Positions 13,694 to 19,723 of a DNA stretch of 64,000 bases are shown here, piece after piece. The notes beneath the pieces were generated by a model. The model was not told the DNA's origin and did no database searches. It was given only the letters and a program-made list of their open reading frames with translations. The stretch is taken from positions 62,001 to 126,000 of the forward strand of contig CAIRYK010000042.1 of NCBI GenBank assembly GCA_903882805.1, given 5' to 3'. Position 1 is the stretch's first letter. Each line of letters begins with the position of its first letter. The translations under genes and the position numbers were made by a program. This stretch comes from an uncultured Bacteroidota bacterium (GTDB lineage Bacteria > Bacteroidota > Bacteroidia > Chitinophagales > Chitinophagaceae).

Positions 13694-14335
13694 CTATTCA
13701 TCCTGCTGTGTCGCGGCAGGGAGCGGTTCTCGTTTAAAATGGGGTAAGGACAGTTTGTAGCGCACCGCCAACACGCGAATGGCGAAAATAACCAACACAG
13801 AAGCTATCATACATACCTCGCGGTTGCAGTGCAGGTAGTTGAGCGTAAGGTACACTACTGCGCCGGCAAGGCAGGCAGTAGCGTAAATTTCCTTTCTGAA
13901 AATAACCGGTATTTCATTCGTCAGCACATCGCGCATTACGCCGCCCATAATGGCCGAAAACATGCCCATGATAGCTGCAATAAAAGGCTGAACGTGAAAC
14001 AACAATGCCTTTTCGGTGCCCAAAATGGTAAACATGGCAATACCCAAGCTATCGAAGATGAACAGCAGCTTGCGCTGCCGCACTAAATGGTTGAAGAATA
14101 TGCTGGTAAATACTATTGCGGCAATAATCACATACATACGGGTGGCATCAGCCACCCAAGACAGCGGATAGCTACCCAACAGCATATCCCGTATACTACC
14201 GCCGCCGATAGAGGTAATGAAGCCGATAAAGGTGACGCCAAACCAATCGGGCTTTGATTTCTGATTGGCCACGAGTGCGCCCGACATGGCAAAAAAGCCG
14301 GTTCCCATCAACTCTAAAATATATTGTACAGACAT
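13694..14335 (-). CDS. TRIC-family cation channel (YadS/UPF0126 type)
   Basis: This encodes 213 residues with seven hydrophobic segments arranged as two three-helix repeats. Each repeat carries a glycine-rich signature, 'GGGSIRDMLLG' in the first half and 'GGVMRDVL' in the second. These are the hallmarks of prokaryotic trimeric intracellular cation channels (UPF0126). The family conducts monovalent cations; the bacterial physiological role is unclear. It lies 38 bp downstream of the thioesterase gene on the same strand, so both are probably read from the tandem-leader transcript upstream. Confidence 0.88.
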   Translation of the reverse strand: MSVQYILELMGTGFFAMSGALVANQKSKPDWFGVTFIGFITSIGGGSIRDMLLGSYPLSWVADATRMYVIIAAIVFTSIFFNHLVRQRKLLFIFDSLGIAMFTILGTEKALLFHVQPFIAAIMGMFSAIMGGVMRDVLTNEIPVIFRKEIYATACLAGAVVYLTLNYLHCNREVCMIASVLVIFAIRVLAVRYKLSLPHFKREPLPAATQQDE

Positions 14336-14373: not shown

Positions 14374-14763
14374 TTATGCGCAATCTGCCAAAGCCTGTTG
14401 CAAATGCTGTTGTTTTCGAAGCGTAAACGTAAAGTCGCCGGTTAGCGCCAGTATTTTGTTTTTACCCTTGCTTTTGTAAATAACGACGCTGATGTGCAGG
14501 CTTTCGGGGCCGCTACGCGAGTAGCGCGATTCTATTTTCATAGTATCGCCCAGCAAAGCGGCGGCATGAAAATCTACCTGATAGCGTTGTACGCCAACAT
14601 CGTTATAGTCCAGCTCACCCAACACCTGCATTATCAGGCTGTCGTTTACGTTTGTCACCTCCTTTAGCATGGCGCAGGTTGGCCATATGTTGTATTCGTT
14701 TACCAGATCGCGGCTTATGGTTACTATACTTGTTTGCAATTGATTGTTTAGTTGATATTTCAT
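14374..14763 (-). CDS. Hotdog-fold thioesterase family protein
   Basis: This encodes 129 residues. The length, the 'DVGVQRYQVDFHAAALLGDTMKIESRYSRSGPESLHISVVIYK' pattern (a long helix-strand transition with 'GD.m.i.s' turn) and C-terminal 'LTGDFTFTLR' fit a hotdog-fold acyl-CoA/acyl-ACP thioesterase. A catalytic Asp or Glu is not certain. The substrate is unknown. The start codon is 22 bp downstream of a terminator hairpin that ends a leader-peptide unit, so expression probably needs read-through. It is followed by the TRIC channel gene. Confidence 0.65.
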   Translation of the reverse strand: MKYQLNNQLQTSIVTISRDLVNEYNIWPTCAMLKEVTNVNDSLIMQVLGELDYNDVGVQRYQVDFHAAALLGDTMKIESRYSRSGPESLHISVVIYKSKGKNKILALTGDFTFTLRKQQHLQQALADCA

Positions 14764-14784: not shown

Positions 14785-14817
14785 TAAAAAAAGCCCCGAA
14801 ACAGGATGTTTCGGGGC
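14785..14817 (-). terminator. Intrinsic terminator/attenuator of leader unit 1
   Basis: On the minus strand, an 11-bp perfect stem (arms 14817-14807 and 14803-14793, GCCCCGAAACA-type) with a three-base loop is followed by seven T residues. It sits between the 19-residue leader ORF (14911-14852) and the thioesterase ATG at 14763. AACATC in its 5' arm/loop can instead pair with GATGTT at the leader stop codon (14859-14854), an antiterminator arrangement. Confidence 0.75.
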
Positions 14818-14851
14818 AGATTATATAATAGCTGGTATATAAATAGCGTCC

Positions 14852-14911
14852 TCAACATCGGGCTTGCGAGCCGACGTAGCAACAATGAGTGTGCTTTATG
14901 TTCTGTATCAT
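14852..14911 (-). CDS. Leader peptide 1 (19 residues, HTHCCY)
   Basis: ATG at 14911 to TGA at 14852 on the minus strand encodes 19 residues: MIQNIKHTHCCYVGSQARC. The codons His-Thr-His-Cys-Cys-Tyr are strikingly similar to those of leader 2 (Lys-His-Thr-Cys-Cys-Tyr). The Cys-Cys-Tyr codons lie just before a hairpin-forming segment (TCGGCT/AGCCCGA) that overlaps the antiterminator strand; an intrinsic terminator follows 35 bp later. This is the layout of translation-coupled attenuation. Which amino acid or condition stalls the ribosome is unknown; there is no ribosome profiling or comparative evidence here. Confidence 0.6.
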   Translation of the reverse strand: MIQNIKHTHCCYVGSQARC

Positions 14912-14942
14912 TTTCTAAGTTTTTGCTCGGTTATTCGTAAAA

Positions 14943-14972
14943 TAAAAAAATCCTTCAGTGTTGCTGAAGGAT
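14943..14972 (-). terminator. Intrinsic terminator/attenuator of leader unit 2
   Basis: On the minus strand, a nine-bp stem (arms ATCCTTCAG at 14972-14964 and CTGAAGGAT at 14958-14950) with a five-base loop is followed by seven T residues. CTGAAGG overlapping the leader 2 stop codon (15004-14998) is identical to the 3' arm and can therefore compete for the 5' arm, forming an antiterminator. Confidence 0.75.
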
Positions 14973-15000
14973 CTATATGAATGCAGTTACACTACCCCCT

Positions 15001-15048
15001 TCAGCGGAAAGTTGCACGATAACAGCATGTATGTTTCACAATGTTCAT
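15001..15048 (-). CDS. Leader peptide 2 (15 residues, HTCCY)
   Basis: ATG at 15048 to TGA at 15001 on the minus strand encodes 15 residues: MNIVKHTCCYRATFR. It shares the Lys-His-Thr-(His)-Cys-Cys-Tyr core with leader 1 although the rest differs, which argues for selection on the codons. The stop codon overlaps CTGAAGG, which can pair with the 5' arm of the following terminator. The order on the transcript is leader 2, terminator 2, leader 1, terminator 1, thioesterase. No clear TAnnTTTG promoter was found upstream. Confidence 0.6.
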   Translation of the reverse strand: MNIVKHTCCYRATFR

Positions 15049-15290
15049 GGAGCAATATTCGGTATTCCGTTAGAAATAACCAAATAAAAATCACAAAAAC
15101 CTGCGACGGTAGCGCCCGAAAAACAATAGAAATTGTCTAAGTAATTGGTCAACAATGCGCTTCATCACAAAACGGGTAGAAATATTTTTTTGCGCCATCT
15201 ATTTTCTGACCAAAATCATAATCGCTTATGCCTGTAGTCATACTCCTGCCATTGGCGGCAAGGTAGGTTTGCATCCACAAATATATACTC

Positions 15291-16448
15291 ATGCCATTTT
15301 ATCATACACTGGGAACAATACCCGACAAACGCCATACAGTAAGCCGCCAACCCAATGGCGAATTGTATCAGGAAGAGTTGGTAGGCACACAAGGGTTTGC
15401 TGGTCTTTCATCGTTGGTTTATCACCTTTATCCACCTACACGCGTTAAGCAAAAAGGCAAGCCCTACTCGGTGCAACCCAAGGTAGCAATAGAAAACGGC
15501 CTGAATGCCATGAGTTTCAACGGCTTCAATATTGCGCCCACTGCCGACTATATGGAAAGCAGGAAGACGCTGTTTGTAAATGCGGCCATGCACATAGGTC
15601 TGGCAGTGCCTATGGAGTCTACTGAATATTTTTATAAAAATGCCGACGCCGATGAAATGCTGTTTGTGCATCGCGGTAGCGGTATACTGCACACCATGTA
15701 CGGCTCATTACCCTTCAGGTACGGCGACTATATCGTAATTCCCCGCGGCACCGTTTACCAGATTGTGTTCGATACTACCGACAATATGTTGCTCTATATC
15801 GAATCATTTGACCCAATCTTCACACCACGCAGGTATCGCAACGATTTTGGTCAACTGTTGGAACACTCACCATTCTGCGAGCGCGATATTAAACGCCCGA
15901 TCGATCTCCGCACGTACGACATCAAGGGCGAATTCGATATTTACATCAAGAAAAAAGGAATGATGTTCCCATACACCTATGCCAACCATCCGTTTGATGT
16001 AGCCGGCTGGGACGGATATCACTACCCTTATACGTTCTCTATATTTAATTTCGAGCCGCTTACCGGTCGCATACATATGCCTCCGCCAATACACCAGACA
16101 TTCGAGAGTCGCAATTTTGTGGTATGTTCTTTTGTACCGCGCCTTTACGATTATCATCCGCTGGCCATACCCGCTCCATACCACCACAGCAACATAGACA
16201 GCGACGAAATACTGTATTACGTAGACGGCGACTTTATGAGCCGCAACAATATACAGGCAGGCCAGTTTACGCTGCACCCAGGCGGCATACCCCATGGTCC
16301 GCACCCGGGAGCTATAGAGCGTAGCATAGGCCAGAAAGAAACAAAAGAACTGGCTGTGATGATAGACCCCTTCAATCCGGTAATGATTACCGAGGAAGCG
16401 TTGAAAATAGAAGTAGACGGCTATTACAAATCATGGTTAACAGAATAA
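15291..16448 (+). CDS. hmgA: Homogentisate 1,2-dioxygenase
   Basis: This encodes 385 residues and opens the ring of homogentisate to maleylacetoacetate in tyrosine catabolism. The N-terminal 'YHTLGTIPDKRHT' and 'NGELYQEEL..TQGF' are typical of bacteroidetal enzymes, which are shorter than the roughly 440-residue mammalian form. The cupin core has 'HRGSGILHTMYGSLPFRYGDY' style motifs and 'IPRGT'; candidate iron ligands are in 'PYHHSNIDSDE' (His, Glu) and 'GGIPHGPHPG' (His). It is first in a seven-gene operon, 13 bp before HPPD. It is divergent from the tandem leaders. Confidence 0.93.
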   Translation: MPFYHTLGTIPDKRHTVSRQPNGELYQEELVGTQGFAGLSSLVYHLYPPTRVKQKGKPYSVQPKVAIENGLNAMSFNGFNIAPTADYMESRKTLFVNAAMHIGLAVPMESTEYFYKNADADEMLFVHRGSGILHTMYGSLPFRYGDYIVIPRGTVYQIVFDTTDNMLLYIESFDPIFTPRRYRNDFGQLLEHSPFCERDIKRPIDLRTYDIKGEFDIYIKKKGMMFPYTYANHPFDVAGWDGYHYPYTFSIFNFEPLTGRIHMPPPIHQTFESRNFVVCSFVPRLYDYHPLAIPAPYHHSNIDSDEILYYVDGDFMSRNNIQAGQFTLHPGGIPHGPHPGAIERSIGQKETKELAVMIDPFNPVMITEEALKIEVDGYYKSWLTE

Positions 16449-16461
16449 ACAATCATTTTTT

Positions 16462-17619
16462 ATGACTACCCACAATCTGAAAAGCGTAACCAATTACAAT
16501 TACGGGATAGAAAAGATCTTCGACAAAGCGCAGGACTTTCTACCCATCAATGGCACCGACTATGTGGAGCTGTATGTAGGCAATGCCAAGCAAGCGGCAC
16601 ACTATTACAAAACGGCATTCGGTTTTCAGTCGCTGGCTTATGCCGGACTGGAAACGGGGGTAAGAGACCGCGTCTCGTATGTGTTGGTGCAGGATAAAAT
16701 AAGACTTGTGCTTACTACACCGCTGGTAAATGACAGTCCTATATCAGATCACATAAAAAAACATGGCGACGGCGTAAAAGTGATTGCATTATGGGTAGAC
16801 GATGCCCGCGAAGCTTTTAAAGCCACCACCGAGCGCGGCGCCGAAGTATATTTTGAACCAATGGTAGAAAGCGATGCAACAGGCGAAGTGGTGAAAGCCG
16901 GCATACGCACTTACGGCGACACCGTGCACATTTTTGTAGAGCGCAAAAACTACAACGGCGTATTTCTGCCAGGCTACGAAGCATGGACATCAGAATACAA
17001 TCCCGGCTCCTGCGGACTAAAGTACATAGACCACATGGTAGGCAATGTAGAACTGGGCAGCATGAATAAATGGGCTGATTTCTACGCAAACGTAATGGGC
17101 TTTGCTAATCTGGTAACCTTTGATGACAAAGACATATCTACTCAATACACAGCGTTGATGAGCAAGGTAATGACCAATGGCAATGGCCGCATCAAATTCC
17201 CGATTAACGAGCCAGCTATCGGTTTGAAAAAATCGCAGGTAGAAGAATACCTTGATTTTTATGGCGGCCCTGGTTGCCAGCACATAGCTGTGGCCACAGA
17301 CGACATTGTGTTTACCATATCTGAAATGAGAAAACGCGGCGTAGAGTTTTTATACGTGCCAGGCAAGTATTACGACACTGTAGGCGAGCGCGTAGGCGAA
17401 ATAGCTGAAGACATGGCTACGCTGAAGAGTCTGGGTATAATGGTAGACCGCGACGAAGAAGGCTACTTGTTGCAGATATTCACAAAGCCGGTAGAAGATC
17501 GTCCGACACTGTTTTTCGAAATCATACAGCGCAAAGGGGCGCGTTCGTTTGGCAAGGGCAATTTTCAGGCGCTATTCGAATCGATTGAAGCAGAACAGGA
17601 ACGCCGCGGCACGCTATAA
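16462..17619 (+). CDS. hppD: 4-Hydroxyphenylpyruvate dioxygenase
   Basis: This encodes 385 residues and converts 4-hydroxyphenylpyruvate to homogentisate, the substrate of the preceding gene product. Two vicinal-oxygen-chelate halves are visible: '[17 protein letters not shown]' in the N-terminal half and the catalytic half starting 'YIDHMVGNV'. Fe(II) ligands are the His in 'YIDHMV', His in 'GCQHIAVAT' and Glu in 'LFFEIIQR'. The C-terminal '[11 protein letters not shown]' gate helix is present. Length and motifs are complete. It lies between hmgA and the paa genes, making a tyrosine-phenylacetate gene block. Confidence 0.95.
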
Positions 17620-17681
17620 GCGAAAACGGCCGCTGCCAACCTCAGAACACAATATCTATTACAATCATAAACATCAACGAT

Positions 17682-18647
17682 ATGGAACTATTAGAAAAAA
17701 CTGATAAGATTCATGAGGAATTGCTGAAGAATTTTGAGGAGAAGATAAACCGGGGCGATGCAATAGAGCCCAAAGACAAAATGCCCGACGCCTACCGCAA
17801 ACACCTGATGCGCCAAATGTCGCAACATGCGCACTCTGAGGTAATAGGTATGCAACCAGAGGGCAACTGGATTACCCGCGCCCCAAGTTTGCGCGCCAAG
17901 CAAATATTGCTGGCCAAAATACAGGACGAAGGCGGACACGGCCTGTACCTGTATAGCGCTGCAGAAACGCTGGGTATCTCGCGCGACGAGATGATTAGCC
18001 AGCTACACAGCGGCAAGGCCAAATACTCTAATATCTTCAACTACCCCGCCCTTACCTGGGCCGATATTGGCGCCATTGGCTGGCTGGTAGACGGAGCGGC
18101 AATCGTAAATCAGGTGTCGCTACAGCGCACATCATACGGACCATATAGCCGCGCCATGGTGCGTATTTGCAAAGAAGAAAGTTTCCATCAGCGTCAGGGC
18201 TACGAAATAATGGCCAAAATGATGAAGGGCACAAAGGATCAGCAGGAAATGGCGCAGGATGCCATGAACAGATGGTGGTGGCCATCGCTGATGATGTTCG
18301 GCCCGCACGATAGCGAGTCTCCGCACACAGGCGATGCAGTGAAATGGAAAATCAAAAGGCACTCAAACGACGAACTGCGCCAGAAATTTATAGACAAAAC
18401 TGTGCAGCAAGCAGAGGTTATCGGATTGACCATACCCGATAAAGACCTGAAGTGGAATGAAGCTGCTGGCCGCTACGACCACGGAGCGATAGACTGGAAC
18501 GAGTTTTATCGTGTAATAGGCGGCAATGGCCCCTGCAACAAACAACGTATGGCGCACCACATAAAAGTGCACGAAGAAGGTGTATGGGTGCGCGAAGCAG
18601 CTGAAGCCTACAGAGTAAAAAAAGAAAAACAATTACTTCACTCATAA
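17682..18647 (+). CDS. paaA: Phenylacetyl-CoA 1,2-epoxidase catalytic subunit PaaA
   Basis: This encodes 321 residues. PaaA is the diiron oxygenase subunit of the PaaABCE multicomponent epoxidase, which epoxidises the ring of phenylacetyl-CoA. Diiron ligands are visible as 'DEGGHG' (ExxH, near residue 84) and 'EESFHQRQG' (ExxH, near 167). '[18 protein letters not shown]' and '[13 protein letters not shown]'-type segments are family-specific. It follows HPPD by 62 bp and paaB starts 12 bp later. Genes for PaaE, PaaG, PaaZ and PaaK are not in the window. Confidence 0.95.
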
Positions 18648-18659
18648 TAACAACAGATC

Positions 18660-18950
18660 ATGACAAAGGATTCTCAGTTAGCAACATGGGAAGTGTTTAT
18701 ACAGTCTAAGCCCGGAGCAAACTATATACATGCCGGTAGCGTACACGCATCGGACAACAAAATGGCGCTACAAAACGCCCGCGATACTTACACCCGCCGC
18801 GGCGAAGGCACCAGTATTTGGGTAGCGCCCACCGAAAGTATTACTGCATCGAACCCCGATGACAGCGAAATGTTTTTCGACCCTGCAAATGATAAAGTTT
18901 ACCGCTTGCCCACCTTTTATGTAATGCCCGAAGGCGCAAAGGCCATCTAA
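18660..18950 (+). CDS. paaB: Phenylacetyl-CoA epoxidase subunit PaaB
   Basis: This encodes 96 residues, the usual PaaB length. Family features: 'WEVFIQSKPGANYIHAGSVHA', 'NARDTYTRRGEG..IWV' and the C-terminal 'F.PANDKVYRLPTFY'. PaaB is a small structural subunit thought to bridge PaaAC heterodimers in the phenylacetyl-CoA epoxidase. The spacing is 12 bp from paaA and 14 bp to paaC, so the stoichiometric subunits are co-transcribed. Confidence 0.92.
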   Translation: MTKDSQLATWEVFIQSKPGANYIHAGSVHASDNKMALQNARDTYTRRGEGTSIWVAPTESITASNPDDSEMFFDPANDKVYRLPTFYVMPEGAKAI

Positions 18951-18964
18951 AAAACAGCCAAATT

Positions 18965-19723
18965 ATGACACATCAAGAAGCGTTATACAGCTATTGTCTC
19001 AGATTGGGAGACAATGCATTGATACAATCTTACCGTTTGTCGGAGTGGTGCAGCAATGCGCCCTTGCTGGAAGAAGATCTGGCCCTGACTAACTTTGCGC
19101 TAGATATGACTGGCAGAGCGCAAGCCCTGCTCACCTATGCCGGACAAGTAGACGGTAGCGGCAGAACAGACGACGAGCTGGCCTACCGCCGCAGCGAGCG
19201 CAAGTTTCGTAACAACCTGATGCTGGAATTGCCCAATGGCGATTTTGCATTTACTATCGCTCGTTTGTTGCTCAATGCTACCTACGAATATTACTTCTTT
19301 ACAGAATTGCGCAAAAGCGCCGACGAAACGCTCAGCGCAGTGGCTGCAAAAACACTGAAAGAAGTAAAATACCACATGACCCACGCTACCGACTGGACGC
19401 TGCGACTGGGCGACGGCACTAATGAAAGCCACCGCCGTATGCAGGCTGCTATAGACGCCCTGTGGATGTATACGGGCGAAATGTTTGAAACAGATGAGGC
19501 CGACGCACTGCTGCAAGATAAAAACGTGGCTGTAGATATGGCTCCGGTACAGGCAAGCTGGAAAGCATACATAGAAAATGTGCTGAAAGAAGCGACCTTG
19601 ACCATGCCTGCCGACGGCTATATGCAAACAGGCGGACGCAAAGGCGTGCACACCGAACATCTGGGTCATATTTTATCTGAAATGCAATACCTGCAACGCG
19701 CTTATCCCGAAGCAACATGGTAA
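18965..19723 (+). CDS. paaC: Phenylacetyl-CoA epoxidase structural subunit PaaC
   Basis: This encodes 252 residues. PaaC is a ferritin-like, iron-free partner of PaaA that stabilises the epoxidase. Typical segments are 'GDNALIQSYRLSEWCSNAPLLEEDLALTN.ALD' near the N-terminus, 'FAFTIARLLLNATYEYYFF' in the core and 'GGRKGVHTEHLGHIL.EMQYLQR' at the C-terminus. The stop codon overlaps the paaD start as ATGGTAA, so translation is coupled. Confidence 0.92.
   Translation: MTHQEALYSYCLRLGDNALIQSYRLSEWCSNAPLLEEDLALTNFALDMTGRAQALLTYAGQVDGSGRTDDELAYRRSERKFRNNLMLELPNGDFAFTIARLLLNATYEYYFFTELRKSADETLSAVAAKTLKEVKYHMTHATDWTLRLGDGTNESHRRMQAAIDALWMYTGEMFETDEADALLQDKNVAVDMAPVQASWKAYIENVLKEATLTMPADGYMQTGGRKGVHTEHLGHILSEMQYLQRAYPEATW

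Follow-up and report, generated by a model that had tools for sequence, protein, structure and literature searches.

The window analysed here, the whole 64,000-nucleotide stretch of DNA, comes from a 4.94 Mb genome (G000) of the Chitinophagaceae. On its minus strand, two short open reading frames, each followed by an intrinsic terminator, precede the genes of a small hotdog-fold protein and a membrane protein. A preliminary description had reported two ORFs of 15 and 19 codons, two terminators with T tracts and, at each stop codon, a segment able to pair with the 5' arm of the terminator, and all of these lie where it placed them. The hairpin TCGGCT/AGCCCGA that it assigned to leader 1 exists as a weak hairpin and lies in leader 2 (14874–14858). 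The parts of the region, in order of transcription, are as follows.

15081–15084, minus strand: −33-like TTTG, 20 nt upstream of the −7 element, by the generally known consensus
15053–15060, minus strand: −7-like promoter element GAATATTG, then 4 nt and the ATG of leader 1 (15048)
15001–15048, minus strand: leader peptide 1, MNIVKHTCCYRATFR*, 15 codons, with homologous leaders in relatives
15022–15027, minus strand: Cys-Cys control codons of leader 1, TGC TGT
14997–15005, minus strand: antiterminator strand 1, GCTGAAGGG, partner of the terminator 1 5' arm CCTTCAGC (−15.3 kcal/mol)
14944–14974, minus strand: intrinsic terminator 1 with T tract (hairpin 14974–14948), 26 nt past the leader 1 stop
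14852–14911, minus strand: leader peptide 2, MIQNIKHTHCCYVGSQARC*, 19 codons, its 3' end being the conserved CGATGTTGA
14879–14884, minus strand: Cys-Cys control codons of leader 2, TGT TGC
14858–14874, minus strand: weak hairpin TCGGCT...AGCCCGA, within leader 2 and adjoining the antiterminator
14846–14859, minus strand: candidate antiterminator strand 2, GATGTTGAGGACGC, weak at the window locus alone (shuffle p 0.113)
14786–14817, minus strand: intrinsic terminator 2 with 7 T (hairpin 14817–14793), 34 nt past leader 2
14374–14763, minus strand: small hotdog-fold protein, the first structural gene, 4HBT-like and under the curated cut-off
13694–14335, minus strand: TRIC/UPF0126 'Gly_transporter' (PF03458) membrane protein, an optional second gene

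Counting both strands of the window, 90 short ORFs have a terminator-like hairpin within 45 nt downstream. Requiring Cys-Cys and a hairpin at least as stable as −10 kcal/mol leaves three of the 90: leader 1, leader 2 and ORF 4846–4736, which runs antisense inside a 640-aa ORF. An Rfam search of the window gave no match above the gathering score. The divergent neighbours on the plus strand (15291–19723) begin with a homogentisate dioxygenase-like gene (HgmA_N), followed by what we take to be a 4-hydroxyphenylpyruvate dioxygenase-like gene and then phenylacetate (paaA-C-like) genes.

Tandem leaders and their target genes in relatives

The tandem arrangement was found at 17 loci, all within one family, and at 15 of them (L002–L011, L013–L016, L070) the leaders lie upstream of a hotdog gene. 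A search with the hotdog protein matched 10 of 60 genomes, its own included. A profile built from ten hotdog sequences matched 13 of 35 genomes of the genus (ten strongly), 9 of 147 in the family, its own included, and, at E 1e-6, 1 of 396 in the order sample, this being the window's own; a related-locus search with the hotdog protein confirmed no relative. Two leaders and two terminators are present at all ten strong genus loci (L002–L011) and at L013, L014 and L015, the last having a membrane gene between the leaders and the hotdog gene. L016, a weaker hotdog match, has the tandem leaders with a DUF2721 gene in that intervening place. Around the weak profile matches L017–L020 and L030–L032, a scan for similarly placed Cys-Cys leaders found none.

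Sequence models of the two leaders extended the set. The leader 1 model matched in at least 146 of 294 family genomes, and we examined 25 loci (L066–L090) and five further stretches; it added the tandem locus L070, and several of its matches proved to be plain gene-end terminators without a leader (e.g. L074, L085, L088, L094). The leader 2 model matched 8 of 294 family genomes and added L132, where a tandem pair, its first hairpin followed by an interrupted T tract, precedes a DUF2721 gene. Within the genus its ten strong matches were taken and weaker E-values left out, and at L133, a partial match, the scan found no such leader. The tandem pair of L091 is followed by genes for a peroxiredoxin and a YciA-like thioesterase. 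The distance from stop codon to terminator was 21–34 nt in 25 of 26 units, and an intrinsic terminator separates ORF and gene, less regular at L115, whose hairpin has no T tract, and at leader 1 of L132, where the T tract is interrupted.

Of the thioesterase and TRIC genes first proposed as targets, the hotdog gene stands as the commonest first target and TRIC is optional. Its rejection as a constant target follows from tandem loci without TRIC and TRIC loci without a leader: the examined stretches of L007, L009, L010, L011, L015 and L070 contain tandem leaders and no TRIC gene, a TRIC search in the genomes of L007, L009, L010 and L011 (G003, G021, G023, G034) returned no match, and at L038 and L040, the two of eight genus TRIC matches that lack the hotdog gene, no leader was seen. 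The ten aligned hotdog proteins share 21–32% identity with that of the window, so that the layout of the leaders is conserved more strongly than the sequence of the protein. Structure prediction from the single hotdog sequence gave a mean pLDDT of 40. The protein (14374–14763) is fast-evolving, with one position occupied by Cys in 8 of 10 sequences and by Gly in L009 and L011.

Second leaders end in CGATGTTGA at 14 of 15 loci (14852–14860 in the window), L015 ending in CAATGTTGA instead, and the ending is kept even where the antiterminator uses other bases upstream; the second leaders of L091 and L016 have different ends. Since even its synonymous positions are fixed, CGATGTTGA seems to preserve more than Arg-Cys-stop. 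The possibility that the ATG within CGATGTTGA opens a reinitiation ORF into the next gene was considered and rejected: by eye, among the loci read, such an ORF is open and in frame only in L007, L070 and L015, and in L015 the frame runs into the membrane gene. Between leader 2 and the hotdog gene, L006, L009, L011 and L014 carry a small ORF of about 36–44 codons, ending in IEDYEYYLF or similar in three of them and in EEDNYFI in L014.

Single leaders and other amino-acid leaders

Single leaders of like build lie directly before a YciA-like acyl-CoA thioesterase gene (PF03061; under the cut-off of NCBIfam YciA) at 19 distinct places, found through matches of the leader 1 model, which alone detected L068, and through a search with the YciA-like protein. 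The gene occurs in 12 of 35 genomes of the genus. Seven of the genus genes have a leader directly upstream (L096–L100, L102, L103), three lie downstream on contigs with tandem hotdog loci (L104–L106, on those of L010, L006 and L007), one is part of the peroxiredoxin operon (L101/L091), and at L107, a partial gene on the contig of L038, no leader was seen. The family sample yielded the gene in 21 of 195 genomes, comprising L101 again and 20 other loci, three of which (L111, L112, L116) are the same places as L092, L067 and L069. Among the 16 family loci at ≥68% identity, leader and terminator are present at 10, L115 has a leader and a hairpin without a T tract, and the leader scan found none at five (L117, L119–L122, the gene start being taken as the match start for L119–L122). 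The same scan found no leader at four low-identity YciA paralogues (L124–L127). At L102 and L103 a type III pantothenate kinase gene, its identity tested for L102, follows about 120 nt beyond YciA.

Leaders with other control codons occur in the same family. Lys/Thr-rich leaders of the KHTKRTKK type with terminators precede asd at nine loci in several genera (L071, L077, L078, L080, L082, L084, L087, L090, L095), the identity of asd having been tested for L078 and judged by eye for the other eight; the KHT that these leaders share is biased, because the search model favours AAACATACA. A Trp leader, MNWWWHTNSGWGM, with a terminator precedes trpE at L093 (about 2071–2030 on its minus strand). 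Poly-Cys leaders such as MKNCCCCCHGFY, with hairpins, precede some cysE genes (L083, L134–L136, L156). A cysE search matched 25 of 60 genomes at 26 places, with no match in G000 at E 1e-40, and 4 of the 26 loci (L134, L135, L136, L156) have a poly-Cys leader, in addition to the query locus L083, whose hairpin (−13.0) the automated hairpin scan did not pick up. An antiterminator test near the stop codon of these four yielded candidates in L156 (p 0.02) and L136 (p 0.08) and none in L134 (p 0.31) or L135 (p 0.51). With a candidate antiterminator in only part of them, the cysE leaders are better evidence that Cys-codon leaders occur with terminators than that they use exactly this switch.

Control codons, antiterminator spacing and promoter

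The quantitative comparison covered 48 units, namely 14 tandem leader 1s, 15 second leaders, the leader 1 of the peroxiredoxin locus and 18 single leaders; L016, L115 and L132 lie outside this set, and the five cysE units were kept apart. Cys accounts for 13.4% and His for 9.3% of the residues. Cys is encoded by TGT 80 times and by TGC 57 times, and this use of both codons indicates that the amino acid, not the DNA letters, is kept. The Cys codons of the leader ORFs, which have 14–34 residues before thioesterase genes, are conserved with synonymous changes. Several cores hold a single Cys (L069, L092, L113, L114, L123 and, outside the 48, L016), and the residue that follows it is often Trp or Lys. 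The core first described as His-Thr-(His)-Cys-Cys-Tyr thus needs revision: relatives keep His-x-Cys-Cys, sometimes as one Cys or as Cys-x-Cys, and the Tyr, earlier counted as part of the signal, is not conserved.

The antiterminator pairing is likewise conserved, so that both features on which the preliminary description made its proposal depend, leader codons and pairing, are retained in relatives. In permutation tests, which ignore shared descent, duplex energies for own and swapped terminators were −13.3 versus −10.2 for 13 leader 1s (p 0.0003) and −15.0 versus −11.7 for 13 leader 2s (0 of 20,000 permutations), while own-terminator pairing gave p 0.00025 for 14 leader 1s and 0 of 20,000 permutations for the 18 single leaders. 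The paired segments themselves differ in sequence by group (leader/arm: GCTGAAGG/CCTTCAGC, CCGGAG/CTCCGG, GATGTTG/CAACATC, GCTCAAAGG/CCTTTGAGC, TGCGGG/CTCCGCA). Against shuffles of single letters rather than dinucleotides, p exceeded 0.1 in 7 of 48 units (window leader 2, 0.113; L009, 0.42; L014, 0.25; L070, L097, L099 and L110), the clearest pairing failures being leader 1 of L009, leader 1 of L014, and L097.

The antiterminator starts a median of 22 nt from the core Cys codon (quartiles 17 and 23). In this median the core index of L092, L097 and L108 is one or two residues off; it is on Cys for the standard deviations, and the result is unchanged. Across the 48 units the SD of the antiterminator centre was 4.2 nt when measured from the Cys codon versus 8.2 nt from the stop codon, with the core Cys of L097 taken as an earlier Cys than the one aligned with L096. 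Single-letter shuffles gave SDs of 10.8 (Cys) and 11.0 (stop), and the observed Cys/stop ratio of 0.51 lies under all 200 shuffles (mean 0.99, minimum 0.75). With the search window fixed on the stop codon, the SDs were 5.1 versus 8.5, a ratio of 0.60 (shuffles: mean 1.11, minimum 0.91). Because the front edge of a waiting ribosome lies roughly 12–15 nt ahead, this Cys-anchored spacing points to a ribosome waiting at Cys. Co-variation and spacing together argue for an antiterminator that excludes the terminator and is free only when the ribosome stands at the control codons. Comparison with relatives thus upholds the earlier proposals of tandem leader-peptide attenuators, each with its own antiterminator, and of the Cys codons as the putative stall site.

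Leader 1 begins 4 nt after the −7-like element, so its mRNA is probably almost leaderless. Given the Bacteroidota promoter consensus TAnnTTTG, the transcript probably starts at or adjoining the leader 1 start codon. A spacing of 4–5 nt between the end of the element's TTG and the start codon is seen in 13 of 14 tandem leader 1s and 15 of 18 single leaders, two more single leaders having 6 and 7 nt. No such element was found in the 45 nt upstream of L015, L118 and leader 1 of L091, and none of the five cysE leaders has one so placed.

Proposed attenuation by cysteine supply and alternative readings

We consider the locus, with a probability of about three in four, to contain two ribosome-mediated transcription attenuators in series before the hotdog gene, gated by the supply of cysteinyl-tRNA. 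Comparison of sequences establishes the leaders, the terminators, the co-varying antiterminators, the Cys-anchored geometry and the −7-like element at the start codon; from these we infer that ribosomes stall, that tRNA-Cys is what they respond to and which way the response runs. The signal had first been left unnamed. As the control codons encode cysteine, it can now be proposed to be most likely charged tRNA-Cys.

Transcription would start at or beside the leader 1 start codon. With charged tRNA-Cys plentiful, the ribosome would reach the stop codon and cover the antiterminator strand, and terminator 1, then terminator 2, would halt RNA polymerase. When charged tRNA-Cys is scarce, the ribosome would wait at the Cys codons, leaving free the strand that starts about 22 nt downstream of Cys, which could capture the terminator's 5' arm while the 3' arm is still to be transcribed. 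This pairing would let the polymerase pass, and leader 2 would then have to repeat the event. Read-through would turn on the small hotdog (acyl-CoA thioesterase-like) protein and the neighbouring genes. As to purpose, we propose that when cysteine is short, thioesterases would release CoA from acyl-CoA, with thiol-protecting genes co-regulated. This idea is built on biochemistry, since coenzyme A obtains its thiol from cysteine, and on the types of gene that follow the leaders. The link of the downstream genes to cysteine is direct for cysE; for the hotdog, YciA, peroxiredoxin and CoaX neighbours it runs via CoA and thiol chemistry only.

Constrained folding of the window units is compatible with such a switch. 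When the ribosome is placed on the first Cys codon and the 3' arm is still absent, the predicted structure is the antiterminator (−14.8 and −14.4 kcal/mol). Moving the ribosome to the stop codon makes that structure impossible, and the terminator is predicted instead. Once the RNA is complete, the terminator has the lowest energy in each of the three cases, even while the ribosome occupies Cys (−19.8 and −24.8), so that antitermination would need to be a kinetic choice, made while the RNA is being transcribed, as it is in other attenuators. Further points against the attenuator reading are the seven of 48 units with a pairing p above 0.1 and the five of 16 YciA-like genes at ≥68% identity where the scan found no leader.

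In 44 of 48 units a His precedes the core Cys by at most five residues, a regularity for which codon sensing by itself offers no account. Starvation-sensing leaders usually carry more than one control codon, and the single-Cys cores have fewer than usual. Both features, like the peroxiredoxin and DUF4395 genes in some operons, would fit a nascent His-x-Cys-Cys peptide that is itself the sensor. Binding of an oxidant, a thiol-reactive compound or a metal such as copper or zinc would alter the speed of the ribosome and so work the same terminator/antiterminator switch. A parallel exists in Bordetella CruR, reported as a copper-sensing upstream ORF with a Cys motif whose functional Cys residues control operon read-through (PMC9426467). 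CruR itself, a protein of the DUF2946 family and of full size, contains CXXC and RAPP and works through Rho (PMC9426467). The thioesterase leaders described here measure 14–34 aa and have intrinsic terminators, and those of the window, of 15 and 19 residues, have neither CXXC nor a C-terminal RAPP. We regard the peptide sensor as unlikely. The trpE leader and most asd leaders also have His-Thr beside Trp or Lys/Thr runs, an observation biased by a model trained on CATACA, and in most cysE leaders no His precedes the Cys run. In addition, the core Cys lies at about residue 7–23 and, given the general dimensions of the exit tunnel, would be inside it much of the time, and the spacing of the antiterminator agrees with a ribosome that waits on the Cys codon.

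It is very improbable that the terminators end small regulatory RNAs or an upstream transcript and that the short ORFs are incidental. Each unit alone resembles a short RNA with a terminator, ORF-hairpin pairs are as common as the 90 in the window suggest, and the minimum-energy fold of the full RNA is the terminator; against this, Cys codons are conserved while synonymous codons change, the antiterminator is Cys-anchored, and the same architecture, built from different DNA sequences, holds a constant position ahead of the same genes across many genomes. Less probable still is a general sensor of translation speed (e.g. for an antibiotic or global starvation) with Cys codons as merely slow codons, for although an atypical ermC leader is described as sensing general slowdown (PMC2965389), thioesterase leaders keep Cys in the core (the nearest exceptions being L015 leader 1, Lys-Cys-Thr-Trp, and the Cys-Trp cores) and other operons of the family use the codons of their own pathway (Trp, Lys/Thr, Cys).

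The preferred reading, attenuation gated by cysteinyl-tRNA, can be set beside known systems. Classical leader-peptide attenuation operates in the trp, his and thr operons of Proteobacteria. The window units resemble it in having a short ORF with control codons and a mutually exclusive antiterminator and intrinsic terminator. They differ in that two stand in series, leader 1 is probably nearly leaderless, the antiterminator strand sits close to the stop codon of the leader, no conserved protector hairpin being known, and the target is not an amino-acid synthesis operon. Closer in codon content are the mycobacterial poly-cysteine short ORFs, leaderless and reported to respond to cysteine (Canestrari et al. 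2020, cited in PMC9031893), and the cys leader peptides that Seliverstov et al. 2005 predict (PMC1262725), all being short ORFs with Cys codons and an actual or predicted cysteine response. The leaders of PMC1262725 have no conserved terminator hairpins reported and serve cysteine genes, whereas the present units have intrinsic terminators and antiterminators and precede thioesterase, peroxiredoxin, DUF2721 and TRIC genes. Tandem terminators in the rimP leader likewise place two control elements in series before one gene (PMC2965389); in the present case both elements are ORF-based and share their type of control codon, while the rest of the sequence differs. A Bacteroides transcriptome study notes that some long 5' UTRs contain short ORFs which call attenuating leader peptides to mind (PMC7366714). 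Among open-licence PMC papers, none was found to describe this system by title or abstract. On our best reading the kind of system is known, and what would be new here are tandem, nearly leaderless units aimed at thioester and thiol genes.

A wider proposal, which we hold tentatively and with slightly more doubt than confidence, is a cysteine-gated regulon within one family. In it, near-leaderless leaders, often two in series, would tie cysteine supply to acyl-CoA hydrolysis (by two distinct hotdog thioesterase groups), peroxiredoxin and membrane proteins, forming a switch of the CoA and thiol economy run by the ribosome, not by a transcription factor. The geometry of the 48 units is a natural data set on the distance of an antiterminator from a waiting ribosome. 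It appears that one further family employs leader-peptide attenuation, both for its Trp, Lys/Thr and Cys genes and for thioesterases. If this is right, cysteine would be named as the signal for genes of unknown role, and the link from cysteine to coenzyme A would be directly testable.
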